Below, in pieces: positions 1,026-63,135 of a stretch of 64,000 nt of DNA (within the stretch, counting starts at the first letter, position 1; each line of letters starts with the position of its first letter). The stretch is from positions 620,001 through 684,000 of the forward strand of contig CM041202.1 in assembly GCA_023078555.1 (NCBI GenBank), in the 5' to 3' direction. This DNA comes from Ulva prolifera (taxonomy: Eukaryota > Chlorophyta > Ulvophyceae > Ulvales > Ulvaceae). A model generated the notes under the pieces. The model had not been told where the DNA came from and did not search any database. It saw only the letters and a program-made list of their open reading frames with translations. The position numbers were made by a program, and so were the translations under genes.

Positions 1026-4000
1026 GGTACGCGCCATTCCTCCACCATGCGCCATCTGCAAGACACGGACGCTCCACGGCCCGTGTTTGTGGCGACGCCG
1101 AGAGAGCTGGAGGCCGCAATCCTCCAAGGCCGGCTCCACATCGTCATCACGGCGCACCTTGACATGACCTCCATGCCGCTGCGCCCCACGTCCATCTGCT
1201 TGGAAGGCTGCGAGAGCCCGCTGCCGATCATCCAGGATGCCCTTTCTATACGGGTGTGCAGCCTCCTGCAGCAGGGCATGAAGCCACATGTGTGGTAAAC
1301 CTGAAGCAGCTGCTTGAAAAACAATCAAAGATCCAATATACATGCGCCGAGCTAGCGCTGCTTGACGAGTTGAGTCTCGACCTTGCAGCCTGCACCTGCC
1401 TTGTAATGCATCACGATGTGGGCCACCGGTACCAGTGCGCGCATGAGCACACCTGAAACATGTCATGGCCAATGTACAATGATGGATGGTGCCAAGGGCA
1501 TGTATGTGTTTGCAGGGGGAGTGTGATGGACCCCCCAGAGAAGTGGACCTCGCGGTGCTGGACAACACCCCCGGCGCCGCCCAGCTGCTGCCGTTCCAGG
1601 ACCGCCAGTGCCTCATCATGACAAATGGGGAACTCCTGCCCATCATGTCCTATCGGTGCGCCGCGGTAGTACACGTGCTGCGTCGCAGCAGCCTCGCACG
1701 CGTGCGTGCATGCCACTCCTGCAGGCTCACTTGAGTAAAGCTAGCGCTAGCCATGGGTGCAGCTCTTGATGCCGCGTATGTGCTTTGCTCGGCAGGCGAG
1801 ACTGCTTCAGGATTTGCGTATACAGGAACCCCCCCAGACTCTCTTTCCAACAGTCTGTTAACTGTGACAAGTCACACATGTCATCAAATGAGGGAAGACG
1901 GCACAAGCAGGGGGTGTGCCGGATGTCATCCTCATGCAATTCACGTTCTCACCCTAGGATGTGACAGGTGAATCGTGCGGAGCGGACACAGGTCAGCAAC
2001 TACGCTGGAAATCCGGCACCGTGCCGGCGGGACGCTCATCAGATGCTCGACCCGATGCATGGCCTCAGCTGCTAGCTATAGTGTGTCGGCCGGAACACGG
2101 ATCCCAGCAGCACGTGCATCCGCGAGTGCACTCGCGCAGGCATGGAAAACATGCATCAATACTCACAATTGCACTCCAGTCCCGCGCTGCAGTCAGGGGA
2201 GATGACTGCGCATGCAGTGCTGACGTTAGTGTTGCCGTAATCACACAGCTGACGCCGGTCGAGGGTGTACAGCACATGTGCTGCAGGATATGGCTTGACA
2301 ACCTGTACCTGCGGGCGGTGCACTATAAAGCGCTGCAACCGCGGCAGTCTCAGTTCACCTCACTCGCAGCGTTCACGACACTGAATCCGCCGCTGACAGG
2401 TGAGGGCGCATACTACGCGACCCGCACCACCTTCCAGAGCGATGGCCTTGGGCCGACGGTGGGCATCTGGTCTGACGAAAGATCATACATCGAGAGTGCG
2501 CCGGCCAACCTGATCAGGACTAGATCACACTGGGATGCACAGGACGGATGTTGAAACCCTTAGTCCCTCTGTGCATGTCTCTCACTGCAGTTGAAGTTTC
2601 AAGGCCCCATATCTCAAGAAAGTGCACGGACAGCTCTTAAGAGCTTTCAGGGCGCGCGAAGAACTTTCTTTTTGTTGTTTATAGGCCCGTACGGCGTGGG
2701 AATTGCAGAGCAAGCACCACACATGTCTACAATACCACCAAATCTGGTCATCCCCACTGTCACATCACGGTGGTGTGCTGCAGACTGCACATTCGCAAAC
2801 CTCGGCGGAGACGACTCCGGCACCGCGGCATGCGGAGACTGCAACGGCGGCGTCGTCGCCGCAGGCTCCTTTGTGCACATCGTGAACTCCACGTTCTTTG
2901 ACCCCGTGCGCCGCCCGCTCACCAGCTACGTCCGCGCCTGGGGGAGTGGTGGCGTCCTCCTCACCGGCTGCACCTTCGCGGCGCCGCCAGACATCACCCG
3001 ACCGCTGTTTTATGCGCGGGAAAGCGCGGTCATATACACGGACGACCCGGCCATCCGCGTGCGCTCCGGAGATGGGGGAACGGCCACTGCAAGCCCAGTT
3101 GCGCTGGTGCCGGATCTCCCGGCGGACTCAAACAGGACCTTCCTGCAGCGAAGCGACCCGTGGTTTGTGAACATTATGCGCGTGCGCTCCCCATTCTGCA
3201 GGCGCGCATCATGATGGCCATGCATGCATGGTCACCTCCGGTGTTGGCATCACTGAGTGGCGATGGCAACCAGCTTACTTCCTTTCCCTACCACGGTATT
3301 CAGCATTGAGCAATTAGTACGTGCACATGGTACCAAAGGCTCCTTGTCATCTTCTTGCCCATGCAAGGTCAATTTCAGGTCGGCCTGAGTGTGCACACAT
3401 CGCGATCGGCGGCGCCAGCATTGACTTTGTAGCAGGTGCCCGGTACATGCAAATCCAGTGGTTCTGACACGGAGTGATGTTCTCCATCCATGGAGTTTGC
3501 CAGAGCTTGAAGGTGGTCTGAAGTGTTCCCTCCAGCGTGTGGTCATGTAGCTTTGAACGACCCACGCTCCTGATGCTCGGAGTTCTATTCTTGCTGGTGC
3601 AGACCTCAGTCATCTTGCCCAGCCACCATGTTAGCCTGGTGATCTAGCAGCCTGATGCAGAGTCAACGCGAGATCGTCAGCCCACAGCCAGCGTACCCGG
3701 CACCTCTGGAGCCAGTTCCACTGCTCGAGGCGGGTGACGGTGTGGCGCGTATGCCCAATGCTCCGCTCACCGGACTGCCGCCCGGCGTCAGCAGTACACC
3801 CCCAGCGGGAACCAACACAGGATCCGGGCTGACGCAGGCGGCCACTATTGCAATTGCCATGTCCATCACAGTTGCTCTCCTGCTGCTTGTCGTTGCGACC
3901 ACGGCTTTTGTCATGCGGCAGCGACGGCGGCGGCAGAGGCGAGGCGCGGCAAATGAGGGCGCGGCGTTTGCCGGCCGGTCCGCCAGCCGCCGCAGTGGTG

Positions 4001-7000
4001 GCGAAGCTGGGCGTGATGTAACTGCAGAAGGCATGCCCGGCATGCTGTCGAGTGAGCACAGCGCGGAGGTTTGGCTGCCACACTTAGCCCTGCAGGCACA
4101 GTTGTCGCTGTTTGGTGACCTCCTGTCCTGATGTTGTGGCATGCACTTATTTGCCACCTCCAGCATGACCACTGCTGCTCCTCGCACAGTCAAAGGCGGA
4201 GGCGTGCATGTGTTACAAGCACACAGACAGAGAGGCTGCAGCTGGTGGCACCGCCTCGGGAACGAACGATCACATCAATGCTACCGGATGCGATCATACG
4301 TTGAACCGATCCACAGTTTCCATGCACAGCAGGAAGGCGTGGATGTGTATGCAGGTGATGCCCGTGAAGCTGCGGTCCGTCATGAGCATGCTCTCCCACC
4401 ACACGACATCTACTTCTGGTGGCAGAAGCATGTGGCCTGTGGAGCAGAGCACCTACTGGGCGACCACGGTCGACTTTGACGGCCCGCTGCCGACTGCGGC
4501 CGCGCCGGCCGGCAGCAATTGCAAGCTGGACGCCCTGCACGCGCAGCTCAACAGCATCAGCAGTGACGTGGCCGTACTTGAGCGGTTCAGCCTCCTCGGC
4601 CCAAATCAGCGGCGCCAGGGCGGTGCGCCGCGACTCAAAACCTCTGAAAGGCCTGTCTGCCGCGGCCACAGTCACATGACACAGGGCAGACTGTATCACA
4701 GTTCAGAAGTGCTGTCATGTTTACACACGTAACTCTTCACATGTGACCACGTTCCGCCTCCGCAGCTGGCATCAGGCACACTCGCTGCAGCATCTGCAGT
4801 TGACTACTAGTAGGATCTTGCATCGGAATGCTGTGTAGCTACACGGAACGCGCCCTGCTGGACGTCGGGAAACAGCAGCGTTTGTAAAGGGAATTTACTT
4901 AAGTTCAGTAATCCTGAATGTGCTGAGCCGTATTCTGAAGAGGCCATTGACAACTCCGAAACTGGACCACAAATGCCGTTGCACAAGGGCTGATATATAT
5001 ATATATAGTATATACACCATCAGCCTGACAGTGGTACACTGTGCATCTGATGAGTGTGAGGCTGTCCTTCTGAGAATGAATTTGCAGAATCTCTGACTTG
5101 ACGATGTGCCTGAAGGAGGATTTCTGTATCCGTAAGCCGCTGCGTAGCCCAACAGCATGTCGCCGTGAAATGTACGGCCAGCAAGTGTCATTGTGAAGTA
5201 TGGAGCTGGTGATTTCACATATGTCGATATCGAAGTTCAGGGCAGGACGTTCCGAGTTACTCTTTGTGTTGCACAAGGACAAAGCCGGAGGAGCCGGTAG
5301 CACCGCCAGAGCGACGACGAAGCACGTCCGTCGACAGCCCAAAGCACGTGCGTCAGGAGAGCGGCAGCCACCTCGAGACCGCCGCCACACAGCGCCAAGT
5401 CACAGCAACCACCCGCACGCAGCACCCCGCCTCATGGCTGGCTGATCAGCCTGACAGGAACCCACGGAACACGCACCCACACCGAACACTCCCCCACGCA
5501 CCCCCACCACATCCCAACACCACACCCACGCACCCGCCCCCGCTCAATCCCCCAACACACACACCCACGCGCATGCATGCAATAAGACCCCGCTGCCCGC
5601 GCGGCCTCGACGGCGCAAGCTGGCAGCCTGGCTGGCACCGCCCCATCGCACAAACCACCCAGCCCGCGGACCCCAACCCAATCTCCATACTGCAGCCGTC
5701 CCCGACTTCACCCCCGTACCCAAACAGATCACCCCTGAGCGGCGGTGAAGCACGGCAGCGCCGCCATCCGCCGACCCATGCAGGACATAGCACGCTTAAT
5801 GACACGCGCCCACGGAATGTGTCCGGGCGCCAGGGCACGCGGAAGAGGCGGCGCGCATTACTCTATGTGTGACATTTGTACACGTCGCCGATTTTATAAG
5901 ACCACCCTGGACATCGCCATGTCGCAATCACACGCATGCCCAGTCACGAAGGCTGCTAGGATATCAACACACAATGTTGACCTTGCAGGGCAGGGCGTTG
6001 TGGCCTTCGCAAGGGGTGTGCGTGATGAACTTGGTTATGCGCTCAAGTTCTTCATTGACCGTACCTCCTTCCTCGCGGAGCGCGACATGTACCGCAGCGC
6101 CACCCTCGGCACCCTCCTGCCGCAGGTCCACGCCGAGTACGACCCCGAGGCGACGCCCGGAGCCCTCCTGGACGGCGGCGGCCGACCGCTGCCGCCATGC
6201 ATTGTGATGGAGCGCGGCGAGGGCCTGCCTGACTGGTCAAAACGCGCCAAGCCCGACGTCTTCCAGTCCGTCGCTGTGCTGGCGCATGTGGCGACGCGGC
6301 TGCGCGACATGCATGAGGGCGGCTATGTGCACCGCGACATCAAGCCCGAGAACCTGATGTTCCTGCCGCGCGAAAACCGGTGGACAGTGATTGACTTCGG
6401 GTGCACTGTAGCGGCAGGGGATGTCGCGCCGCTGGCCTACACGCTGGTGTATGCGTCGCCCGAGACTGCAGAGGCGGTGGCGGCCGGTGCGAAGACGATC
6501 GTGGCAGACCCGGCGGCGGACGCGTGGGCGCTCGGGGTGGTGGCGTTTGAGCTGCTTACGGGGCAGTCAGCGTTCAACCTCGTCACCGAGGGCCGTGACT
6601 CGGTGCGCCGCTTTTGGTTGCTGGTACAACATTCTCCTGCAGGCTGGTGAGTTCTGCCCAACCCAGCAGCCTTCAGCCGTGCACTGCAGAAGCGGAAGTC
6701 TGACATTCACAGCGCAGCCCTGAACTGCGGGAAGTTGAGCTCAGCTCTGGGATCTCTGGACAACTCCTGAATCCTCCTGGTCACTAAAGTGTACATGTGC
6801 AGATCAGATCCAGACACGCTAACTCTGTCCGTTCTTGTGACCATGCCATGCCATATGCAGTGCACATAGACGTGGCTGTGTGCGCAGGTGCTGGACAAGC
6901 TGCTGGGGCAGGCGGAGCTGGCGTGGGAGGGGGAGCTGGCGGAGCGCAACCCGGTGGCGCGGCGGCGGCTGGGGCTGTTCCGCGAGCCGGTGCTGTCGCT

Positions 7001-7097
7001 TCTGCGGCGCGACCCCGCGCAGCGCGCCACACTCGGTGACTTCTGCCGCACTGTCAACACCGTCTTCTCCTCCCCCACCACCGTCGAGCAGCCGTAA
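1026..7097 (+). CDS. Gene A: receptor-like Ser/Thr kinase with beta-helix ectodomain, canonical active site
   Basis: Probable type I membrane receptor kinase. Exons by eye: E1 1026-1253, E2 1516-1655, E3 2287-2495, E4 2784-3181, E5 3661-4017, E6 4355-4622, K1+K2 5989-6602, K3 6888-7097 (stop TAA); total 808 codons, with an upstream signal exon missing. E1 to E4 carry family ectodomain motifs (ILQGRLHIVITAHLDMT, TRTTFQ, CTFANLGG, IVNSTFFDP). E5 has a PAYPAP stalk, a helix around ITVALLLLVV and then RQRRRRQR. The kinase is complete: GGQG loop, beta3 Lys in YALKFF (codon 6045), HRDIKPEN (HRD at 6330-6338), IDFGC (6390-6404), SPE, DAWALG and RDPAQR. This is the only member with all canonical catalytic residues. 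The K1/K2 intron present in every paralogue is absent. The intron 4623-5988 holds a retroposon fragment. The E5 donor is the least certain boundary. Ligand and substrate are unknown. Confidence 0.85.
5255..5850 (-). repeat. Retroposon 3'-end fragment, family R2, in intron of gene A
   Basis: This stretch, read on the minus strand, aligns with 7440-8010 on the plus strand. Shared landmarks are a start like GCCGCCTCT-CCG-GTGCCC, GGGTCGGCGGATGG, a CGCGCGGGC-GCGGGGTC block, a long GT/GGGTG-rich tract, and an end like CTCCGGCTTTGTCCTTGT. The copies are strongly diverged and no intact reading frame is convincing. It sits inside the juxtamembrane-to-kinase intron of gene A and enlarges that intron to about 1.4 kb. 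Confidence 0.6.
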
Positions 7098-7439
7098 ACA
7101 GTGGCTGCAGTACTGCCCAGCAGTGGACTCCATTAGACAGGACCAGACGAACTGAAGATTTAATTTTCAGAGTTTGACGGCAGTAGTGTAGCATTGCAAT
7201 GCATTGCATGCGACCGTGGTGCTCGCGCGTGCGATTGCATGCCTGCAGTCCGACTGCCTGCGCTGCGGTGGATAGGCAACCGCTCACTGCATGTTTGCAT
7301 GATGCCTCGATGCATCGAGGCGGCCATCACACACGCAGCACACACCAACACACCCACGCAACGACATCGCCCGCGCCAGTCACAGCCATGGCACACAGCC
7401 TCACAGCTCTCCTCGCCGCTCTTTCGCGGGCCGTGCGTC

Positions 7440-8010
7440 ATCCGCGGCTAGGGCGCACTGATGGGCAGCGTGTGCCGCCTCTGCCGTGTGCCCCGACCCT
7501 CGGACACAGTGCACCTCGGGCGTGCCCCGTTCCGGGTGGGTCGGCGGATGGGGGCGCCCCCGTGTGTGTTGTTCCGGCGCTCGGGGCTGGCCTGGTCGGG
7601 GCATTGGGGTGGGGGTTCTGGGGGACCTCGGCGGCTTCCGCATGGGGCGGGCGCCGGCCAGGCCGCCGCGTGGGGCTGCCGCTGCCGCGCGGGCGGCGGG
7701 GTCGTGTAGCGTGTGGGTGTGTGTGTTTGGGTGGGGTCTGGGCCGCGTGCGGGTGCGTGGGTCGGGTATCCGTGTGGAGGTGCGTGTGGGGGTGGTGCGT
7801 GTGGGAATGGGGGGATGCGGGGGTGTTGTGGGGGGGGTGTGGGAGTGGGGGAATGTGTGGGTGCCTGTTGTGCCTTGTGTGCCTTGGCGTTGGCTGTTGC
7901 TCTCTTGTTGCGTGCGCATTGCGTTGTTCGTGCTCTCGAGATCCCTCTTGGTCCTGGGACCGGTGCCATCAGCCCCTCCGGCTTTTTCCTTTGTAATAAA
8001 CACAGCCTCA
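7440..8010 (+). repeat. Retroposon 3'-end fragment, family R2
   Basis: Homologous in opposite orientation to 5255-5850. It begins with a possible decayed Cys-rich segment (CRLCRVP, SDTVHLG) of the kind seen at the C-terminus of some non-LTR element proteins, continues into a GT-rich 3' untranslated-like tract and ends CTCCGGCTTTTTCCTTTGTAATAAAC, containing TGTAA. The very long open frames on both strands here come from GC-rich low-complexity sequence and are not taken as genes. Element class is inferred from 3'-end conservation only. Confidence 0.55.
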
Positions 8011-8059
8011 CAGCCACACAAACACCGCAACCGCACACCCATCTGGCCTCGGTGTCTAT

Positions 8060-8135
8060 GTGTGTGTTGCTGTTGATTCGGATGAGATTCGGTTTTGGGG
8101 TTTGTCTTCTCCCGTTCACTCTTGTAAACGAATTA
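8060..8135 (+). repeat. Retroposon 3' tail, family R1
   Basis: It matches the 3' untranslated end of the LINE at 54867-55547: ATTCGGATGAGATTCGGTTT, then TTTGTCTTCTCCCGTTCACTC and TTGTAA. It lies directly downstream of the R2 fragment in the same orientation. Confidence 0.6.
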
Positions 8136-8441
8136 TCCTGCCTGCTCTGGCCTCGCACTGGTCCCTAATCCTGATGCCCCTCGCATCGCAACACGAGTAG
8201 CCGCGTCTCCCTGTGAACAAGGCGGGTCTCATACTAGCGTATCGTACATCGACCTGATGAATCCAACCCATGTGGCAAGCCGGTGATGTGGATGCGATCG
8301 GAACATCACTGGATTGCCACATGCCAGCATGGTGCAACTTCACATGTATGAGCCGCCAAGGTGCAGGCGTGAGCACGCAGGTGAGCTCACCTTCGAGGGA
8401 TGCTCCTGCGTATCTCTCACTGTGCTTTCCCGTCGCTGCAG

Positions 8442-8489
<48 letters not shown>

Positions 8490-8618: not shown

Positions 8619-8633
8619 TATATGCACCGGCAG

Positions 8634-10536: not shown

Positions 10537-13500
10537 GGACAATGCCTCCAGGACCCGAGCCTGACGAGCACGATGCGTCAGCTGCTGCAAGAAGAGAATC
10601 CCGACGCTCCGGTGTTTGTGTCAAAGCCGAGGGAGCTGGAGGACGCGATCCTCCAGGGAAGGCTCCACATCGTCGTCACGGCGCACCTGGACATGACCTC
10701 CATGCCGCTGCGCTCCACAACCATCTGCCCAGACGGCTGCGAAAGCCCGCTTCCGGAGACACGCGAGACGATCTCCATCCGGGTGTGCTTCGCGGACACC
10801 CTGCGGCGATGTCAGCGGAGCTCGCGACTCAGCTCCTGACTATTCGCAAGCCGATAGTGGCCGTCACGCCATGACATGCCCGGGACGCTGCATGGGCACG
10901 CCAGCAGCTGCTCGGGAGGTTATGCATGGTCATCGCAAGCTGCATATCGCAAAATCTGCATTGTCCGCAGCTGAAGCTGAAATTGTGGGCCTGGTGGGCC
11001 TGGTGTCTGTCTGCCCAGCCCCTCAGGTGGCCCCTGCAGGGCACCAAGGTTGAAATGGCCAGCATGCACATATCTCTCAGGCTGGTGCCTTTGGTCGGTA
11101 AGCATCACACATTCTTTCGCGATGATTGTACGATGATTGTACCTTGCAGCCAGCGCCATTGTTATGTGAATCAATTGCATGCAAGAGATCCCAGCAAATC
11201 AGATTGTGGTGGTAGCTCTCCTGTGGCATGACCCAGCGACCAGATGCTGGCCAGATGCTGGCCAGATGCTGAGCTACAAGACACAGCCAGTCATAGCCAC
11301 TGGACACGGCAGTCTGATGTTGCAGCGCAGCCTGGCGCTTCTCGGCCTGCAGTCTGCAGCTAGGGACTCCAAGCACCTGCTGCCACACCAGCTAGCTGAT
11401 ACTATGTAGTATAGGCTGATCCACGTGAGTGGCACAGGCAGGTAGCACTGCGGGACGCACACGCACACGCACACACGTACACGCACACGCACACACGTAC
11501 ACGCACATCCAAGTGCAGCCATGAGGGGCAGCAGCGACCTTCAACGTGCTGCAGCAGCCAGCACGCTCGTGTATGGCACTGCTGTTGCCTGCGCCTCCGT
11601 GCCGCAGCGCTGAGTGCACAGTCCATGGAACGGCGCCTGCCTGCGCTGAGTTGAAAGGCTCCAGCACCAGCGGACCCTGGCAGCGGACCCTGGGGGGGGG
11701 GGGGGGGGGGGGGGGTACGTGTGTTGTAGCAACAATGCCGAGAGGCAGGCAGCTCCGCAGGAACTACACGCACCACGACCGCGGGGCATTTTTGTGCGTG
11801 TTACAAGGACAACATCACAGAGGCCGATAGTTCTGCCAGGGCAACGCACAAGCACACCAGCGCCACCGAAGTGTGCGTGCGTGTGTGTGCAGGGGGAGTG
11901 TGTGGCGCCCCCAGAGGACCTGGACCTCGCCGTCCTCGACCGCACCCCCGGCGCCGCCGAGCTGCTGCCGTTCCGGGACCGCCAGTGCCTCATCATGACC
12001 CACGAGGACCTCTTCCTGATCCTCTCCTACCGGTGCGCTTGAGCCTATGCTGTACATGCATGGCCACCATGCATATGTATCTGTTCAAGCGGGTCCACCT
12101 GCTCACACCACACCGCGCATGCATGCTCCGTGTAACGGAATCATGCGCCAGCGCCAGCGCTGTCATGGAATAAAATGCTACCAACGGTGGCGGAGGGTGC
12201 AGGTTCTGGCTGGACAACCTGTACCTGCGGGCGGTGTACCACAACGCGCCGAACGACCGGGAGTATCAGTTCATCTCTCTGATCGGATTCCCGCCGCTGA
12301 AGTGGCCGCTGGAGGGTGAGGGCAAGCGCTTCGTCACCCGCACCACCTTCCAGGGTGACGGCCTCGGGCCGGCCGTGGGCATATGGGCCGACGAGAGCGT
12401 TTATGTCGAGAGTGCGCCCCCCTCCCTCCGTGTTGCACCCACATCGCCACTGGCAGAGCCGAGGCCGAGCATGTGGCAAACAGGCCTATGCGATCAATTT
12501 CATTGGATCCTCACAATGTTTGCTACATGTCTGTGGCGGGCCAAGACCGCTTGAATCTAATCGATGCAGAGAGTTCTCAGGTATGCTAGCGAAAGGCACG
12601 TGGAGAGAAGCACCCTACGTGTAGAATCCCGAGGCAATGTAGGGCCACAGAATTTTGCCAGATGGCCCACGAGTAGCACCGCTCCATCAATCGTGTTTTC
12701 ACAGCATCACTTGCCAGGCTCATTTTTAAGCATGCATGGCATCCACAAATGAGGCCAGCATGCACATGCGCTCTCGGACACCCCATCGCCGTGCCTGACG
12801 TGCAGATTGCACATTCGCAAACCTCGGCGGCGACGGCTCAGACAGCGCAGCGTGCGGCGACTGCACCGGCGCTGTCAACGTGGTAGCCCCTGTGCACATC
12901 GTGAATTCCACATTCTTCGACCCCATGCGTGCCAACTTCACCAACTACATCCGTGCCTGGGGCAACGGCAGTGCCCTCATCACCGGCTGCACGTTTGAGG
13001 AGCCTTCAAACATCACCTACCCGCTGTTCTACGCGCGGGAAAACGGAACGGTCTACACGGACGATGCGACCGTCCGCGTGCGCACAGACAACGGCCCGAC
13101 GGTGAGAGCGAGCCCAGTCGCCGATGTGCCGGAGTTCCCGCCAGACTCGACCAAGGCCTTCCTACAGCGGAACAACCCTTGGTTTTCGAACGTCCTGGAT
13201 GTGCGCCCCTCTCTGACGGTGTCCGTGCGGGAGTGTGTGCGTGCGTGTCCCTCGCGTCCCTGTCACTCTTTTGTAATCTCCCTGCGGGAGTGGGCATCCC
13301 AACCCTGCCGCACCAAATCGTGCAATGTGACCCCAGCACATCTCATCGACTGCTGCTCGCATGGCTGCACATCCCAGTCTGTGGGTATGTGAATCTACTG
13401 TATCTCATGCATGAGCTGCATGCACACCGACGAAGCGCGGTGCTCACACGGCGTGCTGCGCTTGCTGCAACGTGCTGACCCCCCGGCTGCAGAGTCAGAA

Positions 13501-46190: not shown

Positions 46191-47888
46191 CCGGATGTCT
46201 GCACACCACGGATCCCTGTGGCGTCGTGTAGGATACGCATGCGCTCGAGACGCCGCGGCTCTGCGCGACCGCATGCATACTGACCTAACGTTGCACGTAT
46301 TACGGCCAGCGTTGTAGCATACCAGTATACTGAAGTACCAGCCGGTCTTCGAGCAGACATCGCAGCATGCTGCTTCCGCAAGCCTGGACGGCGGGCATGG
46401 TACCATTCTGCACCCCTACCAGGCCTATAGGCGCGATGCCGTCATGACTGGACAACCCTGCCGCTGCAGCAGCCGCGCCTACACAGATCTTGGAGACGAC
46501 AGGGAAAGCGATATCGATGCTGAGGCAATCCAGTGACATGGCCGCTGTGCCACTGGGTATCCTGGCACGTCGATGGATGCAGTGATTCAGCGGCCAGACC
46601 ACTGGGTTCCCACATGTCCCACCTGCAGATGCATGCTGAAGTGCAGCAGGCGTGTGCGCACCCATGCGCGAATTCAGCACACCTGCGGCCGCCCGCATCT
46701 CCCTCCGCTTGCAGTGGCCGCTTAAGCTTAAGTGGTACCGGACGATCCGCCTGCAGCGCCTACATACGCACCACGGCTGCGCACACAAGGCGTCGACCTT
46801 GGATGCTGGCACATACGCTTGCCCACAGAAGAGGTGACATGCGTGCTGGGTGATGTGCTGCATGCCTGAAAACTCAGTGCGCCAGTGACCTGCTCTGTTC
46901 CGACACTGTCCCGTGGACCTGACTCAGTATCAAGCAGCATACCGAGGTGCGAATTCGAGCCCCTACATGCTCTACCTGCTGGCCCGTAACAGTCAAATGG
47001 TTCAGCACATTATCCCATGTGTTCGTGGAGACACAAGATCCGAGGCAGGGCTTGTTGCAAAGGTTTTCGGGCCTGGAAGCTGACGTCGCGCCTGCAGCTG
47101 CGAGCTCTGCCAGCCTGTGACCGCGCGCACTTCTGCGTTACGACACAATACATGCAGAGCCACGAGATCATCATTGCAATTGGACATGGCTTGTGGCATC
47201 CCATGCACCCTGTTGCCTTTCGGCGTTCCCTGGCGCTTGACTTCCTGGTCGGCCCTGCACTGTGTCTTCCTGGACCGACAAATATCGCATGCTCTACATC
47301 ATGGCAGGTATGTTGTCCATGATGATCTGTTTTTATCATCCATACGCGCTGTCGTAGCACGGAGCCTGCAGCCTTGAGCTTGCATCATCGACCGGGACGG
47401 CACGATACGTGTTCTTCTGCCCGGATCTCGAGGCATTTGGGCCTCTACATTGGAATCACGTTCATAGCAATGAGCTTGCTTCCGGTCCGTCTGCAGCTGT
47501 GCCTCAGCTTCGGTGGTGTCAGGCAAACCAGAGAAACCACCGCGCGGGGCGCCTACAGCTATGGCACTCTCACAGGCTCGTTCGATGCATCGCCATCTCG
47601 GCCATTCGTGTATCTTGTTGTTAGCATCTTGAATATGTCCACGTGGAACGCCCGGATTCCAGCCCGCGGCTTCGCTTGGCTCCACATACGACGTGCACGC
47701 GAACAGGGGCACCGAGAATGCGACCATCGCCCATCGTGACAGTGCCCACAGCAGCTGCCCTGAGGCAGTCAAACAGAAGAATCTAGGCATGCACCCAGAA
47801 TGCTGCACTGTGCCCCGCGTGCAGGGGCCCAAGGCTTGTAGTCCAGCTGCGAGAGTGCCCTGTAGTCGCAGATATCCACTGACATCAG

Positions 47889-50800: not shown

Positions 50801-53434
50801 CTGGCCATGTCCGTTTTGGTGCAAAAACAGCGTCGCTGTCTCCGGACTGCTAGTCCGGCGGTTCCTGTAGCCATATCGGCACGATGACATCTTCTGCTTG
50901 TTGTAAGGAGATACATGGACCACGACAGGCACTGGCTGAGCTTGTGCGCGGAACTCTACCGTGAACTGCGGGTTGTGTCACGCACACACAGCAAAACTTC
51001 TCATCTGTCGAGATAGTACATTACTTGAAGTATGACTTCCGCCATGCAGCTTCTCGACGTGGATCTACCGGCCCAGCCAGCGTACCCGGCGCCGACAACC
51101 CCGGTCCCAATCCTGGAAGGCATCGACCCGGTCGCCATGGCCCCGGGCGAGGTCGGCGGCGGCGATGGTGGCGGCGGCGGCGGCGGCGGCGGGTCGTCGG
51201 CCGGGCCTGTCGTCGGCGCCATCGCAGGAGTGGCTGTGTTGCTTGCCTTGGTATTGGCGGCGTGCTGCCTGCTGCGGCGCCGGCGCAAGCGCAACTCGGG
51301 CGCGGCCGGAACAAAGGCGGAGGCGGCGCATGCACCTGGCATCGGCAAGCCGATGGGGCCACCAGGGGCGACCGGCGAGATGGCGATCACAAACGGATCC
51401 GACACGCCCAGCTCGAGGCCAGGGAATGGCTTGTGGCTAAGGAATGTCAGGGTGCGCTGCGATGACTCCTGCTTGCCTTCATCCAGCGAAAACACCGACT
51501 GCCCATCATGTGTATCGTCTCGCATGTCGTCTCAAAAACGCTTGTGTATCCATGTGTGTATATGCTGTCACGGTGTCACCTGAACTGGCAAGATGATTCC
51601 CACTGTCCGCCCACTAATTTCAATCAGTATCGCCAGCAAGTTCAAGTTGGAACTTGAGACCTCGACACACGCTGCTCGCCCCGGCGAGCTGGCAGGCTAC
51701 ATGCGGCACGCCACAGTAGCACTTACACGTGATGTGGGCGGTGCAGTCAATGAGCATGGCGTCCGGCAAAGGCGTGGCGGCCGAGAAGGCGGCGGCTGCG
51801 GGCATGCCTCCCGCGCCAACGCTGGTGGACCTCGTCGTCTCGCAACTCAACACGATCGCCCCCACCGATATCGTCTTCGAGCAGTTCAAGCTCCTCGGGG
51901 AATCGCATCGTTGCCTCGGCAGTGCGCCCCCTCCCCATCCTGGCTCACGCCTCAACAGCCCCGGGCCCTCCGTCCACTTCGATAGTGGCTTGCACACCTG
52001 AACGTCAGGCTGACCTGCGCTGCCGTCGGCGAGGTTTGCATCGCGAACCGAGCCTGGAGTGAGGCGCTTGCGGCTGTTGTGGGTGGCCGGAGGCGGTTTG
52101 GTGAGGCTGCTGCGGATTGGTGCATCCACCTGCCGCGTCCACGGCCTTCATCGCGATGCCGCCACACAGAGCCTGAGTGACGGGACCATGCCACCGACGT
52201 ACAGCAGCTTGTGATGTCTTTGATGTACGGGCCATCACATGCTCTGCATGCATACAGATAACGCGGTCGTCGCGATGGCCGTCGGTGCACACTCCGACAT
52301 CCCCTTCGCGGCCAAGTTCTTCGCGGATCGCTCAGGGTTCGACGCGGAGACGGCGGCGCGGCAGGAGCCGGCGCTTGCCGCGTTTGCGCCGCAGATCATC
52401 TTCGTGCACGACCCCGCGGCCCTCGACCGCAACAGCGTCGGCAATACCGACCGCTACGGCCGCCTGCTGCCGCCATGCATTGTGATGCCGCGCGGCGAGA
52501 GCCTCGTGGAGTGGACGCGGCGCGCCACGGCGGACAAGTTCCAGGCCGTCACGGTGTGCACATCTCCCATACATGCTCTCCATCTTCCTGCTTGCGTGTC
52601 ATTGTTGTGCAACCTGCTGAATTGAGGTCAACATCGTTGGAAATACTTTCCGGGGGGGTACGTGTACAGCCACTCAGTCTACTCCGCGCATGCCGCATGC
52701 GTAGTGTGCTAAGCGGCTGAATCCAGCGGGTGTGATGCAGTTGCTGTCACACGTCGCGATGCGCCTGCGGGACATCCATGCCGCCGGCTTCGCGCACCGC
52801 GCCATCAAGCCCGCGCACATCATGCACCTCCGCTCGGACAACCGCTGGACGGTCGTCGACTTTGACCGCGCCGCCGCGCTCGGCGCGCTCGCCCCCCTCA
52901 CACTCAACGGCGCCTATGCCGCCCCGGAGCTCGCGGCGGCGGCCGCGGCAGCAGGAGGCGCGGCGGACGCGGTGGTGGAGGTGAAGGCGGCGGCGGACTG
53001 CTGGGCGCTTGGGGTGGTCGCGTTTGAGCTGCTGTCTGGGGAGCAGCTGCTGCAGCCGGGCGCCCGAGGGGAGGCGAAAGTGTGACCCTGCTGCCCTGTG
53101 ATACATGTGATGCCTCCCCTTGCAATGTGGGCCCTCTCACTGACCTCGGACTTTGCTCTGGCACACGCATGCATGCAAGTAGTAATGGGCTGCTTCTGCG
53201 GGAACTAATAGTTTGCCGTGTGGGTTGCAGCTGCAGGCGCAGCTTCTGGGCGACGCGCCGCTGCCGTGGGAGGCCGCCGCAGACCCCTCAGCCGTCCTCC
53301 ACAAGATCGGGATCTTCCGGGAGCCGCTGCTGCAGCTGCTGCAGCGCGAGCCGGCGCGCCGCGCCACGATGCAGGACTTCTGCAACGCCTGCAACAGCCT
53401 CGTCGCCAGCAACACAACCACCGGCGGCACCTAG
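47889..53434 (+). CDS. Gene F: receptor-like pseudokinase with poly-Gly stalk (HRA, DFD)
   Basis: Exons by eye: E1 47889-48131, E2 48889-49028, E3 49417-49634, E4 50117-50514, E5 51050-51451, E6 51747-51921, K1 52258-52553, K2 52741-53079, K3 53231-53434 (TAG); 805 codons, signal exon not found. E1 begins RLHRASTMASEG, matching the STM seen at the same place in A and B, then HIVITAHLDLTTLDL. E3 has MWLDNVYMR and VTRTTFQGDG; E4 has CTFANLGGDA and VVNSTFFDL. E5: PAYPAPTTPVPILE stalk, a run of about ten Gly, a helix around VAVLLALVLAACCLL, RRRRKR. E6 is the shortest of the family. Kinase: beta3 Lys present (FAAKFF), HRA for HRD (52795-52803), KPAH for KPEN, DFD for DFG, and an Ala-rich insertion before DCWALG. 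The catalytic Asp is lost, so a pseudokinase is expected. It is the most diverged plus-strand member. Confidence 0.87.
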
Positions 53435-54305: not shown

Positions 54306-54866
54306 CATAGAAACGACACGCCGGCCATATGGAACATCCCGTCCGTGGCCGAGTGAATCACTGCGGCCTGAGCTGCGACCAAGCTGCTCCACACAGCGTG
54401 CCAGCCTGCAGCTGATGAACCTGAAGAATCATTGATTCTGCGATTGTCTGTATTAGGCAAGTGTAATCTGATATGTCTGGCAGATTAAATGAGCAAATTT
54501 GAGAACAAACATGAACGTGCCAGGGACCAGAGGCTCCAGTGCACCATACTTCTGACATGCTGCTGCATTTGTGTATCCGACATATGGTCATAGACACAAG
54601 TGGTGCTGGGAGGCCACGGCACGCTCCTGGATGCCCCTGATTTGATACTGTGTAGCTCTACGTAGACTCTGTATCTGAGATAGGTTTTGGCTCGAGCTCT
54701 GCGTTGCCTAAAACACCGCATATATCTGCTGCAACACGCACTTGTGATATCGCTGGATCACCAACCGGCATTGTGAGGGAACCTCGCGTAACTAATGTGA
54801 AGATAAGTCATCGACGTCACGTCCCCATTGCTGCCAGAGTTCCTAAGTGACGACGAGTGCTTAAGG

Positions 54867-55547
54867 AATGTATTTACAAAAGAGTGAACGGGAGAAAACA
54901 AACACTGAAACCGAATCTCATCCGAATCAAATGCAACATACACTCACACACACACGAACACTACAACCGCACTCACAACTCAGTCCGGCAGGATCGCGTC
55001 CTCCAGGCCCGCATCATATCGCAACCCTTGCTCCCGAGAGATGACAAGCCCAGACTTCCGATACATATCCGCATTGCCGCGCTGCAATGACACCGACAAC
55101 ACCCGCAGCGCCCACTGGACAAACGCGCCTTTGGAGATGCGCCCACTGGCAGCGGCCACATCCCCCAACTGACCGACGAACCTCACGGCAGCCTTGCCCA
55201 TGAAGCCACACGATTCGACCGCAAACGGAACAAACCGGAACGCGGCATGGTCAGGCACGTCCCGCCGGAAGCGGTCCCGCTTCCTGTCCTCCGCCCGCTC
55301 CGCCGTCGCACCCGTCTCCCGCGCCGCAGCGGCCACGTATGAGGCCGCCGGCGCATGCGTGACCACGACGTCCACGGCCGCCATCTCCAGGCGCGGCATG
55401 ACCACGACGACGTCCCCGCGGCGATTCAGCTCAACACCCGCGCCCCTCGCGAGGGCACGGTAGAGCGGCTCCAGGGCAGACTGCAGTCCGGCGTAAGAGG
55501 CGACCAGGCGCAAGGCACGAGCCAGGTTATCATGGCGCATCTGGGTC
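54867..55547 (-). mobile_element. 5'-truncated LINE (non-LTR retrotransposon) with 11-bp target-site duplication
   Basis: A minus-strand insertion is bounded by identical AGTGCTTAAGG at 54856-54866 and 55548-55558. It contains the last 186 codons of the element's open frame and about 110 bp of 3' untranslated sequence that ends CTCTTTTGTAAATACATT, including TGTAA. Truncation at the 5' side and the clean duplication are typical of target-primed reverse transcription. The duplication is perfect and the frame is intact to its stop, so the insertion looks young. Its 3' end is the source of the R1 tails scattered through the window. Confidence 0.85.
54980..55540 (-). CDS. C-terminal fragment of LINE polyprotein
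   Basis: The open frame begins within the element (RHDNLARALRLVASYAGLQ) and runs to a stop. Motifs such as VVVTHAPAASYVAAAARETG and FRFVPFAVESCGFMGKAAVR resemble the tail downstream of the reverse transcriptase in algal LINE polyproteins, from memory of that group. The endonuclease and catalytic reverse-transcriptase parts are absent because of 5' truncation, so it is not functional on its own. The initiating Met is simply the first ATG after the truncation. Confidence 0.75.
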   Translation of the reverse strand: MRHDNLARALRLVASYAGLQSALEPLYRALARGAGVELNRRGDVVVVMPRLEMAAVDVVVTHAPAASYVAAAARETGATAERAEDRKRDRFRRDVPDHAAFRFVPFAVESCGFMGKAAVRFVGQLGDVAAASGRISKGAFVQWALRVLSVSLQRGNADMYRKSGLVISREQGLRYDAGLEDAILPD

Positions 55548-56057: not shown

Positions 56058-56116
56058 CGGTGGAGCAACGAGCGCCGAAATGCTACCGTAGCATTTGGGC
56101 GCTCGTTGCTCCACCG
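56058..56116. repeat. Hairpin: 29-bp arms with one mismatch, 1-nt loop
   Basis: Arms 56058-56086 and 56088-56116 pair except for one position. The left arm starts CGGTGGAGCAACGAGCGCC. It ends 43 bp before the orphan kinase exon at 56160. Confidence 0.95.
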
Positions 56117-56159
56117 TGACTGCCGTGTGACGATCGTGCACATGGGGCGTGCGGTGCAG

Positions 56160-56582
56160 GTTGCGGCGCATCTGCGGGGGCAGGAGCCATTGCCGTGGGA
56201 GGGAGACCGGCTGTGCGAGGAGGCGCGGTTCCGCCTCGGCATCTTTGCGGCCCCTGTGCTGGGCCTGCTGCACCGCGACCCCGCACGCCGCGCCTCCATG
56301 CTGGACTTCTGCAACGCATTCCATGACATCGTGGCGAGTAACACCCCCACGGCAGGGTGGCGTGACGGCTGCCGCCAGTGGCCACGGGGGGTTCTTGTGC
56401 GCAGCTGGTGGCCACAGTGGCGCAGCGGTGCGGACACACGGGGCAGATGCACACGGCGCCGTCCGCTGGCAGCTGCGCAGGGCCATTGCAAAGGGCATGG
56501 GCGCGCTTGTGCCTGTGGTCGGTGTTACGCCGGAAAGCAGGAATGCAGCTCGTTGCACCGAGAGTCCCATGCGACGGCATGA
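56160..56582 (+). pseudogene. Gene G: orphan last kinase exon (K3), stop codon lost
   Basis: After a GTGCAG acceptor the frame reads VAAHLRGQEPLPWEGD, then RFRLGIFAAPVLGLLHRDPARRASM and SNTPTAG, a complete K3 exon most like that of gene H (EETRFRLGVF, RDPARRPSV, SNTTTAG). No other family exon exists on the plus strand between gene F and this point. At the place where genes B and H have a TGA stop, the sequence reads TGG, so the frame runs on to 56582 with unrelated residues. It is best explained as the remnant of an inverted partial copy of an H-like gene. It could be an alternative last exon of F only if 2.7 kb of spacer were spliced out. Confidence 0.7.
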
Positions 56583-56744
56583 GCACCCGGGACACATGTA
56601 GCCAATGGGAGAGGGCTGATTAGGGTATAACAGTCTGTAGAATAGACACGACTCAGTAACCGTACATGAGAGCATGGTGTGCATGCATGTGGCAGCAAAT
56701 GTGTTGCGAGGTTCCTGCCGTACCATTTGCAAGCGTGTTTTGAA

Positions 56745-56745
<1 letters not shown>

Positions 56746-56780
<35 letters not shown>
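56746..56780. repeat. Homopolymer of 35 G
   Basis: An uninterrupted G run lies in the spacer downstream of the G remnant. Confidence 0.9.
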
Positions 56781-57552: not shown

Positions 57553-57557
57553 TTACA
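57553..57557 (-). terminator. Candidate TGTAA polyadenylation signal of gene H
   Basis: The minus-strand TGTAA lies about 570 bp past the stop of gene H. It is a candidate only. Confidence 0.25.
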
Positions 57558-58123
57558 ACACTGGCACCCTAGTAGGCACCTAAACCCGCCCCGAGAGGCC
57601 GGTGAATTGTAGTCGAAGCTGATCCGAGTCTCACTGACCTGTGTGTCTGCGGACACATACCTCACAACCAGAGGGACTCCGAGACACAAAGTATCGAAGT
57701 CGGGCCTGGTCACTCTGCCTGGCTCCGCTGTCGGGCTGTAGGCCATACACAATATACTACAAACTAGATCTAATATCCTAGGCGTGGCAACCGTGTGGGG
57801 TGAACGGCCAACCTATCGGCAGTGTGCATGTGACACAGCCGATAGCCACACACAAGTATCCTCTGGCTACAGGTAAAACCATCAGCATGCCTTTGACGGC
57901 CGGCACTTGATTTAGCCCTGCCGCAACACCACAGCATATTAAAAAAGACGACAGGCTTGCAATGCTTCTGCGCCATGGCGACGCTGCACCCCCGCCCCTC
58001 AATGGGTATTAGGCTCAGAAATGAACATACTTAATTGCCATATCGTGGCCGGAGGGGACCCCCCTCCCCCCCCACCCCCCGCCCCCGCCCGCGGCGCGGG
58101 GGCGCGGGGGTGGCTCCGCCTCA

Positions 58124-61100
58124 TCACCCAGCAGTGGTGGTGTTGCTGGAGACGATGTCTTGGCAAGCGCTGCAGAAGTCCTGCACGGAGGGGCGCCGGG
58201 CGGGGTCGCGCTGCAGCAGGCCCAGCACGGGCTCGGCAAAGACGCCGAGCCGGAAGCGTGTCTCCTCGCTCAGCCGCTCGCCCTCCCACGGCAGCAGCTC
58301 CCGCCCCAGCAGCTGCGCCACAACCTGCACCGCACCCCCCACGCCACCAGTCAGCACATTACATCCAGATTTGCATTCCTACGCGTTTCTTTCGATAAAA
58401 CACGTTGAGTGCGAGTACGTACATGTTATTTTTATGTAGGAAATCAAAGTATGATACGTTGGGACGCGGGGACTTGACGTTTTTCAGGACGGCTCCAGGG
58501 AAATCCGCACCGCGTTGCACCCCTAGCCATGCGGCGTAGCAAAGGCCTGTGCCACTATGCCCTGTGAACAACACATGACACAGAAAATTTGCACATTGAA
58601 CTTGCAACACATGTCAATTGATATTTGATGCATTGTGGGAGACCATAGACTGCACAGATCGCTGCACACTGCCAATGGGGCAAAATTCTCTTTGCGCCTT
58701 AGGCGGCAAGATGGCATTTTACCTACACAGCGTTTTTTAAATTGCAGCAAAGTTGAAACATACGTATCGTATTCGTTTTATATTTTTAAGTTTTACAGCG
58801 TAGGAATGAAACTGTGATTACATCAATGCCTTTTCCCCCCTGAATCCCACCATGTACATCCAAGTAGACTGTGTATGCAATGCATGGGCACATGTGCCTT
58901 GTGCAAGAGCCGCACCTGTTCCTCTGTGGCCGCGGAGCGGTCAAACGCGCTCTCGCCGGACAGGAGTTCGAACGCAAGCACTCCAAGCGCCCAGGCGTCG
59001 AGCGACGCATCGACGCGGACACCTGCCCCCCCCTCCGCGGAGGCAGCCACGACCTCTGGAGCGGCGTATGTCACCGCGGCAGCCGGCGCCGGTGGGTTGC
59101 CGAATGCGACCGCACGGTCAAAGTCCACCAGCGACCAGCGGTTCTGCTCGCGGAGGTGGATGATGTGCTCCGGCTTCAAGCCGCCGTAGACGTACCCGGC
59201 GGCATGGATCTCTCGCAGGCAGTCCGCCACATGCGCGACCACCTGTGGCCACATCTTGTTCACCCTCAGACTAGTCCTGATGGGACGGTTCATGGCACGG
59301 CACACAAGGAAATGGAATGCCCGGCCGATGGCATGCTACATGTGACGACACTATTGCACATTCGGAGCCCAAGCACTGGGTCTGCATAGCAGTGAGGTAC
59401 CTACGTAGGTGGTCGAGCTCTGACCGCAAGGAAGGAGGGGCGGCGCACGGAGGCAGTCTGGAAGATGTCCGGCGTGGCGCGCTGCCGCCACTCCGAGAGG
59501 CTCTCGCCGCGCGGCATTGCAATGGATGGCGGGAGTGGCCGGCCCCAGCGGTCGGCGATCGCCAGGTTCTCGTCATCGGGCTTGGAGGGGTCGTGCACGG
59601 CGCGAATCTGCGGCAGCAAGCCATCGAGAGCCGGGTCGTTGCGCAGCGCGAGTTCCGCGTCGTAGGACGCTCGAATGGGGAAGAACTTGATGATGCAGGG
59701 CTGCCGTGAGAACGCGCCCACGGCGTACGCGACCACCGATTGGCCTGCAGCAGACGCACAACACTTGCATGCTGCTGTCTGTGGCTCAAACCACCGCTCC
59801 ACATCGCGGAAAGGCAGACATGACGGCCATGCATGTGGGTTCAGCGGCACTGCCTGCTGTGGACCCTCACCTCGTCCGGTTTGCTTCATCATGGAACTGA
59901 AGCGAGCAAGCGAGGTGAACCAGGTGTCTGCGGGTGCAGCCTACATGCAGATGCAGTTGTGTGCACACGTCCGACAGTAATGATCATCACTGTCAGTTTC
60001 AGCATGAACGAACGTTAGCCGCCATGCTCCAAGCCGCGGCGAGTTCGGCCTCCATTGTCAATGCGCCGTGGCGCTGCGCCGATCTTTTTAATTGATCACA
60101 CAAATTAAATCATGATATCGAAATAATTGAAGGCGCACCACCGCGGCGGCGCTCGCCAGGGCCGAGGAGCTGGAACTGCTCCTGCAGCGTCGTGTCCGGG
60201 CCAATTGAGTCAAGCTGGGCCTCAACGAAGGCCAGGACCTCTGGCAGCCCCGCCCCGGGGGGCAGCTGCGGCTTCTCCATATGCATGGCAACCTGCCGCG
60301 CAGCCATGTGAGGCAGCATGCCGGCTCTCGCGCTGCCCGGCCCGTCCCTGTGCCGCGTGGAGCCCCCCTGGACGTGAGCAGATCTAGACTCGGAATATAG
60401 TGGCTCGGGATATAGACTCGGGATTGCGTTTACAGGTAGATGGCGCGGTGGCATGCATGTCTTGCGTGCATGCAAGCAGGATGCTTTTTTCCTTTGATTG
60501 ATTCAGAGCAGTGGGCGGGAAAGGCGCCTATAGTATACATATATGCCTGGGTGCCTTGCTTCTGTTTTGGACCATGTGCGGCCCTGTGCAGGTACATAAG
60601 CATCTCCCAAAACTGATTGATACCTCCTTGTTCCGTCCCGGAAAGTACTTTCATCATCTGCTGTCGAGAGAACTGTCCCGACAAAATGTAACGATGAAGG
60701 AGGTTCGAAAGAAGCCTCCCGGTGAAGCATCATGATGGCCGGATTGCCAGGTAGCAGGTTTGGGTGATGGTACCCTGGCGGCGCACCTGTGAACTGCCAA
60801 CGCGCCAGCTGCCCTGGCTGCCATGCGGCCGCTGTAACTTGCCACTCGGCAGGCTCGACACGTCAGAGGCCGTCCCGGTCGTCCTCATATCCGCAACCTC
60901 CTTGGCCGTGGGCCGCATTGAACTTGAGGGTGTTCCGGCACGCCCCCCGCGCTTCCGCCGCCGGGACAGCCACAGCGCGCAGCACGCCGCGATGGCGGCC
61001 AGCAGGAGCACAGCGCCAACGGCTCCTCCGATGATGGCCACAGTCTGCGGGCCGCCATCAGAGGCCTCGAGGGGCACTGCGGCGGGGGCAGATTCCGGTG

Positions 61101-63135
61101 TGGCGTCGGCCGGCTGCCGTAGCGAGGACACTGCGGGCGGGGCGGGGTGTGCTGGCTGCGGTGCGAGTGTTACAGCGAGCTCCTGCACAGGTGAACCAGT
61201 CAGCTTGATGCTGAGGTGTCAGGCAGAGCGCCGTCAGAATTCTACCCGGAACAATGAAGTCTGGCAGCATGGGTACGGCGTCGGGAGACATGCATCTCTG
61301 AAGCTCCAAGGATCAGCATGCACAGGGCAAGCATACGCCCCACACACGCCTGGTTGACCCGCAACGTTGTACCATTGCATTGACCCAGACCTCCGCAATC
61401 AGTGCCGGGAGGGAGGCAGTAGTCGCGCGGCGCACGTCGGTGATGTTTACAAACCATGGGTCGCTGCGCTGCAGGATGGCTTTGGTTGAGTCGGCCGGGG
61501 TGGCCGGCACCGCCGCCAGCGGCCGCGGGGTCACCTCCAGGCCGTCATCCTCAGAGCGGATGCGCATGTCGCCCACGCCCGCATCCGTGTAGATCACGGA
61601 TGAGTCAGCGACGTAGAAGGGCGCGTCGAGGAGCTGCGGGGTGGCCGCGAAGGTGCAGCCGGAGATGACGATGCGGGAGTCGGCCCAGGCGCGGACGTAG
61701 GCGGTGCCGGGGAAGGGCGAGGGCTCGAGGAAGGTGGAGTTGACGATCGTCACGGACACGTTGGCGGCGGCGACAGCGGCGGAGCAGTCGGTGCAGCCGT
61801 CCGCAAACGCGTCGCCGCCGAGGTTGGCAAACGTGCAGTCTGCAGCACCGAACAGCTCTGGGGATGTACTCTCTGCTTGCAAGTGCTTAGCCACGGCTAC
61901 AGTGGCGACACCTTGACAATCACTCTGAAGTTTACAATGCATGCAAAACACGGGCATGTAAATGCGCAGATTGAGGAGAGAGACTCGGTGTTGAGGCGCG
62001 GGAGAGGGGAGGGCGCACTTTCGATGTAGCCGCTCTCGTCGGCCCAGACGCCCACGGCCGGCCCGAGGCCGTCGCCCTGGAAGGTGGTGCGTGTGATGTA
62101 GTGCTGGGCCTGCCAACGGTGGGGCCCGACGAGCGGCGCGAGGCCGGCAAGGGTTGCATACTGGTACTGCCTTGGGTTGGGGGCGGTGGAGTCATATTTC
62201 ATCCGCATGTAGAGGTTGTCCAGCCACATGCTGCAAGGCAGGTCCCTTGATTTGGGGAGAGCTGATCAAGCAGATTGCAGAGGAAGGATATCATGGCCAG
62301 AGACCACATGGCACACCAGATGGTACAGTGTGTCTGAACTATTACACCCAGCTCTACATGAAATGCGGCGTACCTGACGGATACATGCCACACTGGGTGC
62401 TACCATGGGATAGATGCATGGGGGGGGGGGGGGGGGGGGGGGTGCAGATCGTATGGAAGGCCATGCATTCACACCTAGGCTGAGCTCGTGTGACCGCGGC
62501 AGAACCTCCTACTGGTAGCACTTGTGTCCATGACACCGATGACTCAAGGCGTGGACTTTAAGTGCACCATGAACACTGCGTGCATGCACCGACTGCAGGC
62601 ACCAACATATGCTGTTATGGGGGGGTCGAAAGGCGCACTGCTTGACGAGGATGGGCAGGGAGTCCTCATAGGTGAGCACGAGGCACTGCCCCGTCTGCAG
62701 CGGCAGCAGCGGCGCGCCCTCCAGGGTGGCCGCAAGGGCCTCCACCTCCGCACCGGCCCCGGCAGAGCAGTTCCCCTGCAGCGGCACGCCCCGTCGCCCC
62801 GTCAGGCCGCGCCACATCCACAGGAATCGGCAAGTCCATATGGAAGAGGGGGGGGGGGGGGGATCAGCAGTTGCTTGGTGACGGATCAAGGAGGTGGTCA
62901 CGAATCAGAAGCCCGCGGCTGAGGGGGGCCCAGGGATGGAGGCGGTGCGTACCCGGATGGAGGCAGTGCCGCGGATATCGGGCAGGGGGCTGGCGCAGCC
63001 ATCAGGGCAGATGGAGGTCTCCCGCAGGGGCAGGGTGGTGAGGTCGAGGTGGGCGGTGATGACGATGTGACGCCAGCCCTGCAGCACCGCGTCCCGTAGC
63101 GCCACTGGCGTCGACGCAAACGCGACGCCGTCTCG
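58124..63135 (-). CDS. Gene H: receptor-like pseudokinase, most degraded catalytic loop (YGG, DFD)
   Basis: Exons in transcript order: E1 63135-62953 (or from an ATG at 63150), E2 62775-62639, E3 62230-62019, E4 61839-61436, E5 61182-60787, E6 60367-60139, K1 59744-59449, K2 59242-58916, K3 58324-58124 (TGA); 795 codons, signal exon not found. Ectodomain: HIVITAHLDLTTLPL, MWLDNLYMR, ITRTTFQGDG, CTFANLGGDA, IVNSTFLEP. E5: PAHPAP stalk, a helix around IIGGAVGAVLLLAAIAACCALWL, SRRRKR. E6: VLAFVEAQLDSIGPD and QFQLLGPGERRRGG. The kinase fold continues with GGQSVVA, IIKFF, PPSIAMPRGESLSEW, DAWALGVLAFE and RDPARR. The HRD triad is YGG, KPEN is KPEH and DFG is DFD, so neither the catalytic Asp nor the metal-binding Asn is present. 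G tracts interrupt the E1/E2 and E2/E3 introns. Confidence 0.87.
62420..62442. repeat. Homopolymer of 23 G in intron of gene H
   Basis: An uninterrupted G run lies in the E2/E3 intron. On the gene sense it is poly-C. Confidence 0.9.
62848..62862. repeat. Homopolymer of 15 G in intron of gene H
   Basis: A G run lies in the E1/E2 intron, about 70 bp upstream of the E2 acceptor and poly-C on the gene sense. Confidence 0.85.

Follow-up and report, generated by a model that had tools for sequence, protein, structure and literature searches.

How green algae, which are reported to possess few plant-type receptor-like kinases (RLKs), sense their partners, microbes and own wall is an open question; the chlorophytes shown in a table passage of one review have 1 to about 4 RLKs each (PMC10868138). 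A stretch of 64,000 nucleotides from Ulva prolifera (GenBank assembly GCA_023078555.1, contig CM041202.1, positions 620,001 to 684,000; hereafter the window, from whose first base all positions are counted) bears on this question, an earlier note made from its letters alone having read in it a tandem family of receptor-like kinases and pseudokinases with beta-helical ectodomains. Is there such a family, and what might it do? The window, with a guanine plus cytosine (GC) content of ~60% and with introns that identify its DNA as eukaryotic, carries seven homologous coding regions, here designated A to G, with consistent exon structure, kinase homology, a membrane helix and loss of catalytic motifs. 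Taken as a whole, they are best explained as a tandem array of type I single-pass receptor kinases in which one competent kinase is accompanied by pseudokinase partners, a reading to which we assign a probability of about 0.58. The cluster suggests a receptor family that has no name so far, with what is probably a beta-helix outside the cell and with a kinase inside it. If this is true, it would provide a concrete gene set for the study of green-algal sensing and an instance of receptor kinases built from other kinds of ectodomain and kinase.

The homologous blocks emerged from a comparison of all 1073 stop-to-stop frames of at least 40 codons in the window against one another. The gene models are homology-guided, with splice sites set at the edges of homologous coding blocks (Table 1), and the seven-gene family in mixed orientation described by the earlier note was borne out. 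Intron phases, counted over exons E0 to E9, are common to all genes and agree at all nine positions: 0 at E0/E1 and E1/E2, 2 at E2/E3, 1 at E3/E4, 0 at E4/E5 and E5/E6, 1 at E6/E7, and 0 at E7/E8 and E8/E9. Every donor at the 60 junctions is GT and 59 of the 60 acceptors are AG (the exception being E0/E1 of gene F), counts that are partly set by construction because sites were picked for GT-AG and frame. Independent of that choice are the extended donor GTGCG (39/60) and acceptor GCAG (53/60). Moreover, blastn matches that link the paralogues at E 1e-15 or better have both their limits no more than ~40 bases from a called exon end, as in a match at 27580-27929 that covers E8 of gene D, the other matches being repeats; GC at third codon positions (GC3) is 0.78-0.85 in exons against an intron GC of 0.55-0.59. 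These match limits, the GC contrast, the splice-motif bias and ratios of nonsynonymous to synonymous change (dN/dS) below 1 together argue that the exon plan is not due to chance. Genes C, D and E follow the proposed ten-exon plan, as do F and G provided that a tentative E0 is counted; B has nine separate exons in our models, with no E0 accepted, and A has eight, likewise without E0 and with E7 and E8 fused. The donor of E5 in gene A is uncertain, with at least two candidate sites. The motif TGTAA lies within 900 bases past the stop in five of the seven genes against 0.44 expected per stretch, which is too loose for use as a mark of green-algal origin.

The encoded proteins have the putative layout of single-pass receptors. 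Exon E5 encodes a Pro-rich stalk and the only hydrophobic 19-residue segment of each protein (Kyte-Doolittle 2.57-2.97), with no Lys or Arg in the preceding 15 residues and 3-7 in the following 15. The single membrane helix foreseen in the earlier note is accordingly present in all seven, with a positive-inside flank. Less of the proposed QLDSI-QF-LLG juxtamembrane helix survives: QLDSI is exact in two of the seven genes only, and the stretch as far as LLG probably takes in the first strand of the kinase N-lobe, to judge from the alignment. Signal peptides were sought as phase-0 exons of 8-44 codons up to 1.5 kb upstream (the first intron of gene E measures 1825 bases). They are clear and mutually homologous in E0 of D and E, and plausible in E0 of C, where 9-mer hydropathy reaches 2.86, yet no 19-mer exceeds the threshold of 1.6. 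Two candidates for gene B, near 9769 and 10335, were listed and not accepted. Secretion of the receptors is likely.

The cytoplasmic portion, E6-E9, is a Ser/Thr-type kinase. All seven proteins match Pfam PF00069 above its curated cut-off, with E-values from 2e-11 to 1.1e-18 (A 2.6e-16, B 2.1e-14, C 4.1e-17, D 2.6e-15, E 1.1e-18, F 2e-11 and G 1.3e-14), in agreement with the kinase homology ascribed to them before. PF07714, a profile on which the kinases of plant receptors tend to score highly, falls short of its cut-off of 23.1 bits in A (21.0), E (20.8), C (18.1), B (16.2) and G (12.4) and is unreported for D and F. Among PDB matches, the best 60 of 1080 and the best 60 of 128 name PknA, PknB, twitchin, DMPK, Aurora, RSK, DYRK2 and similar kinases and no RLK, one entry reading 'Kinase domain protein'. 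A model of E7-8 from gene A finds Aurora, AMPK, Chk1 and other PDB kinases by Foldseek (best E 2.3e-4). A tblastn search of plasmids with the A kinase exon returned 153 records with identities below 60% throughout; the best 10 of the 153 are bacterial kinases or unannotated. The kinase likely lies outside RLK/Pelle. Kinases with a PPCIVM-RGESL-like motif presumably occur in other green algae; if so, the kinase half would belong to a known but unnamed algal family.

The seven kinases differ markedly in their catalytic motifs. The beta3 Lys is kept in all seven alignments, and gene A, with HRDIKPEN and DFG, is the only member to combine HRD, the loop Asn and DFG. Genes C and E have HCD and gene D has QCD, all three with His for Asn and with DFD. 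B (HRG), F (HRA) and G (YGG) share the His and DFD and have lost the catalytic Asp, which is retained in A, C, D and E; the loop Asn and the DFG Gly are found in A only. By motif, A has the look of an active kinase, C, D and E are atypical, and B, F and G are dead, such that the pseudokinases of the earlier note are recovered as B, F and G, while A has a full catalytic set and C, D and E are intermediate. These losses might instead reflect a decaying cluster, with A as the sole working receptor and the others becoming pseudogenes. The loss of the DFG Gly and catalytic-loop Asn in six of seven kinases would agree with decay, as would two stops in gene D and a solo exon copy. However, B, C, E, F and G have uninterrupted frames of 795-885 residues (885 in gene E, exactly as noted earlier), every pair has dN/dS below 1 in both ectodomain and kinase, and the same His-for-Asn and DFD recur in each of the six genes B-G, a pattern more like that of conserved pseudokinases than of random decay. 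We consider decay of the cluster distinctly improbable. Gene D itself, whose stops lie in E6 and whose other exons are open, would, to go by its reading frames, have become a pseudogene recently or else encode a membrane-anchored ectodomain that lacks a kinase. Splicing-out of the stops was considered, and no shared junction was seen in this exon, which was checked by eye only. The E3/E4 intron of D also contains a perfect tandem array of 5.5 copies of a 30-base unit (31663-31827).

If the array encodes a competent kinase with pseudokinase partners, its parts could be assigned as follows. E0 would act as signal peptide and E1-E4 as a beta-helix ectodomain binding a ligand outside the cell, for which a glycan of the wall or matrix is a guess; E5 would supply stalk and membrane helix, and E6-E9 the cytoplasmic Ser/Thr-type kinase. 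Phosphorylation would fall to gene A or to active kinases encoded at other loci of the genome, and B-G, as pseudokinases or weak kinases, would join mixed complexes as co-receptors or scaffolds, a mechanism that we infer. Having lost catalytic residues in common, six of the seven members would form a natural set for the study of pseudokinase co-receptors.

The ectodomain, encoded by E1-E4, is 312-330 residues long and carries 3-6 sequons and 7-10 Cys per protein; 67 of the 343 alignment columns are invariant, 7 of these being Cys. Motifs of the type NCTF, NSTFF and GCTF are spaced ~30 residues apart in the alignment. The sequences CTFANLGG and VNSTFF, previously regarded as repeats, are not: each occurs once per gene, in E4, and is exact in six of the seven genes. 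Beta_helix (PF13229) is the sole Pfam family found in the ectodomains, matching five of seven with a best E of 3e-4 (gene E), and reversed sequences gave it in none of seven, with one unrelated weak match. NCBIfam returned nothing but one weak unrelated match (0.049, in one member), and LRR, lectin, LysM, WAK, malectin and DUF26 were absent from all seven ectodomains in Pfam at E up to 10. A right-handed parallel beta-helix is the likely fold. With known right-handed beta-helix and pectate-lyase-like proteins (PF13229), the ectodomains share the weak profile match in five of seven and the ~30-residue motif spacing; they differ in scoring below the cut-off and in being fused to a membrane helix and kinase.

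The beta-helix fold is shared with polysaccharide lyases, and the family could accordingly be a wall-integrity sensor, in which a former or active polysaccharide-acting beta-helix is coupled to a kinase that reports the state of the wall. This would be compatible with the receptor array proposed above. Beta_helix as the only Pfam match fits such a sensor, and so do clusters of invariant polar residues (W-D-N-Y-R, T-R-T-T-D and W-E-Y-E). However, neither Pfam nor PDB gave a match between the ectodomains and any family of pectate lyases or glycoside hydrolases, and a catalytic set was not recognised, no systematic search for one having been made. A wall sensor in this specific sense is unlikely.

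Several observations weigh against a family of secreted beta-helix receptor kinases. The gene models are predictions from DNA sequence alone. Signal-peptide candidates in E0 of F and G are weak, gene B is without an accepted signal exon, and none was found for gene A in bases 1-1025, though its first exon may lie upstream of the window; the signal peptide claimed for the whole family is thus clear or plausible in three members only. For the ectodomain, the best Beta_helix score is 20.9 bits against a curated cut-off of 25.9, such that every match is below it; two of the seven ectodomains have no match, and an E-value is given for the best of the five only. With full-length proteins, gene E scores 0.0028 and A and C show no Beta_helix row. 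The ectodomain profile has no PDB matches up to E 10, an AlphaFold2 (AF2) model of exon E4 alone is uninformative at a predicted local distance difference test (pLDDT) value of 40, and comparing the ectodomain with itself gives weak signs of internal repeats (best off-diagonal match at E 0.02, with a probability of 2.3%). The beta-helix of the earlier note accordingly stands on a sub-threshold profile match and its clean reversed control. On the kinase side, the AF2 model of A exon E7-8, built from 13 rows, is poor (pLDDT 57.6), and its Foldseek matches have template modelling (TM) values of ~0.4. Finally, no relatives turned up in viral contigs (kinase and E4), bacterial genome contigs (E4), plasmids (E ectodomain) or phages (A ectodomain), collections whose scope excludes eukaryotes.

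The earlier note also likened the array to clusters of recognition genes. Diversified receptors for pathogen, mating or symbiont sensing would be compatible with the preferred receptor-kinase reading, and several features of the locus lend themselves to this analogy. Birth-and-death turnover is suggested by a tandem mixed array that includes a solo exon and an interrupted gene; B groups with A by its ectodomain and leans to the others by its kinase, as if domains had been exchanged; and the HCD catalytic loop of C and E occurs in plant immune non-RD receptor kinases. The sequences themselves show constraint instead. Pairwise dN/dS (NG86, 21 gene pairs per region) ranges from 0.32 to 0.68 in the ectodomain and from 0.39 to 0.69 in the kinase, below 1 in all 21 pairs for each, although such averages could mask a few selected sites. 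The 67 invariant columns likewise tell against diversified recognition, and it is the stalk and juxtamembrane region that vary most, the putative binding domain less so. Values above 1 occur in four juxtamembrane pairs (A with C, D, E and F) and one stalk pair (F-G), in poorly aligned sequence where two further pairs were not computable. Arms-race diversification is unsupported because pairwise dN/dS is below 1 in both ectodomain and kinase. Diversified recognition is, on balance, rather unlikely.

The relationship between A and B deserves closer attention. Their ectodomains are 64% identical, against 47% for B-C and 46% for B-E, but their kinases are 53% identical, against 63% for both B-C and B-E. 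In the ectodomain tree, A and B are joined with support 100 and the kinase topology is rejected (approximately unbiased test, AU, 0.0003-0.0016); in the kinase tree, joining A and B is disfavoured marginally (AU 0.038-0.086). The kinase branch of A is long (0.69), and faster change in this kinase could be an alternative to domain exchange. Exchange is nevertheless favoured because B-G share His-for-Asn and DFD, which A does not have, and A also lacks the E7/E8 intron. This pattern suggests different histories for the ectodomain and kinase of A.

How does such a family compare with those already described? With plant RLK/Pelle receptors (LRR, WAK, malectin and G-lectin), the Ulva genes share a putative signal peptide, an ectodomain, one helix and a cytoplasmic kinase, and also the tandem clusters and the pseudokinase and non-RD (HCD) members familiar from plants. 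They differ in that no named ectodomain class is present and in that PF00069 passes, with PF07714 below cut-off or unreported. Plant pseudokinase receptors have the same receptor architecture and degraded catalytic motifs, but the ectodomain here is another and the kinase family probably so. The GDT/DRK receptor kinases of Dictyostelium offer a parallel in that some ectodomains are unique to one lineage, whereas their kinases are of the TKL group and the ectodomains are not described as beta-helical in passages of the source (PMC1420674). In Chlamydomonas reinhardtii, 575 genes carry kinase-domain annotations and 50 Chlamydomonas-specific orthogroups include kinase domains, and unnamed algal kinases are to be expected because of these counts (PMC8226300).

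Across 350 genomes of plants and algae, one survey counted 177,645 RLKs, of which almost 70% fall into seven ectodomain classes, none of them a beta-helix, and it names PERK and thaumatin-like classes besides (PMC10834447). The contention of the earlier note that no named receptor-kinase class has this architecture therefore holds among the seven classes, and the ~30% of counted RLKs outside them mean that the absence of a beta-helix RLK class is not proven by this source. A beta-helix receptor kinase is not described in the titles or abstract openings among the literature matches listed, and a literature search for a parallel beta-helix joined to a protein kinase domain in algae found none. 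It is possible, at somewhat less than even odds, that the cluster represents an unnamed receptor-kinase class in which a beta-helix ectodomain and a non-RLK kinase were joined independently of plant RLK/Pelle, one canonical kinase being kept with conserved pseudokinase co-receptors and recombination swapping domains, such that A would be a B-like ectodomain on a canonical kinase.

Table 1. Modelled genes and associated features of the window (exon coordinates in window positions; a question mark denotes a tentative boundary)
Feature	Span	Strand	Exons or remarks
Gene A	1026-7097	+	E1 1026-1253, E2 1516-1655, E3 2287-2495, E4 2784-3181, E5 3661-4068, E6 4355-4622, E7+E8 fused 5989-6602, E9 6888-7097
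Gene B	10552-16358	+	E1 10552-10782, E2 11893-12032, E3 12203-12411, E4 12806-13200, E5 13493-13891, E6 14095-14383, E7 14784-15079, E8 15527-15853, E9 16158-16358
Gene C	17822-24768	-	E0 24643-24768, E1 23441-23683, E2 22778-22917, E3 22369-22577, E4 21706-22103, E5 20998-21384, E6 19938-20226, E7 19339-19616, E8 18645-18968, E9 17822-18025
Gene D	26869-35014	-	E0 34880-35014, E1 33411-33650, E2 32809-32948, E3 32057-32265, E4 31222-31616, E5 30177-30599, E6 29469-29766, E7 28836-29137, E8 27589-27912, E9 26869-27075
Stop-bearing stretch of gene D E6	29575-29607	-	TAG and TGA in frame, between membrane helix and kinase
Gene E (885 aa)	36208-43920	-	E0 43771-43920, E1 41718-41945, E2 41257-41396, E3 40696-40904, E4 39722-40116, E5 38915-39325, E6 38211-38514, E7 37549-37844, E8 36943-37266, E9 36208-36408
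Gene F	47203?-53434	+	tentative E0 47203-47307, E1 47910 (or 47889)-48131, E2 48889-49028, E3 49417-49634, E4 50117-50514, E5 51050-51451, E6 51747-51921, E7 52258-52553, E8 52741-53079, E9 53231-53434
Solo E9-like last kinase exon	56143-56359	+	tblastn 72% to G E9
Gene G	58124-63456?	-	tentative E0 63379-63456, E1 62953-63135, E2 62639-62775, E3 62019-62230, E4 61436-61839, E5 60787-61182, E6 60139-60292, E7 59449-59744, E8 58916-59242, E9 58124-58324

The solo copy of the last kinase exon is inverted relative to 58341-58125, to which it is 83% identical (blastn), and tblastn found no upstream exons for it. Adjoining it is a 59-base near-perfect inverted self-match (95%, 56058-56116). No tRNA or Rfam match occurs in the window. 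The Pfam scan of intergenic frames covered one frame, and a 188-residue open frame at 54983-55546 on the minus strand has no Pfam match at E 0.1; its sequence is reminiscent of the C-terminal portion of LINE-type reverse transcriptases. A dispersed repeat, recognised by peptides that recur in several frames, lies in both orientations at ~200-600, 7404-8164, 30860-31173, 40288-40572 and 54761-55087, the copies at 211-270 and 8119-8060 being 92% identical (blastn). Two long homopolymers are also present, one of 46 C at 8442-8487 and one of 35 G at 56746-56780.

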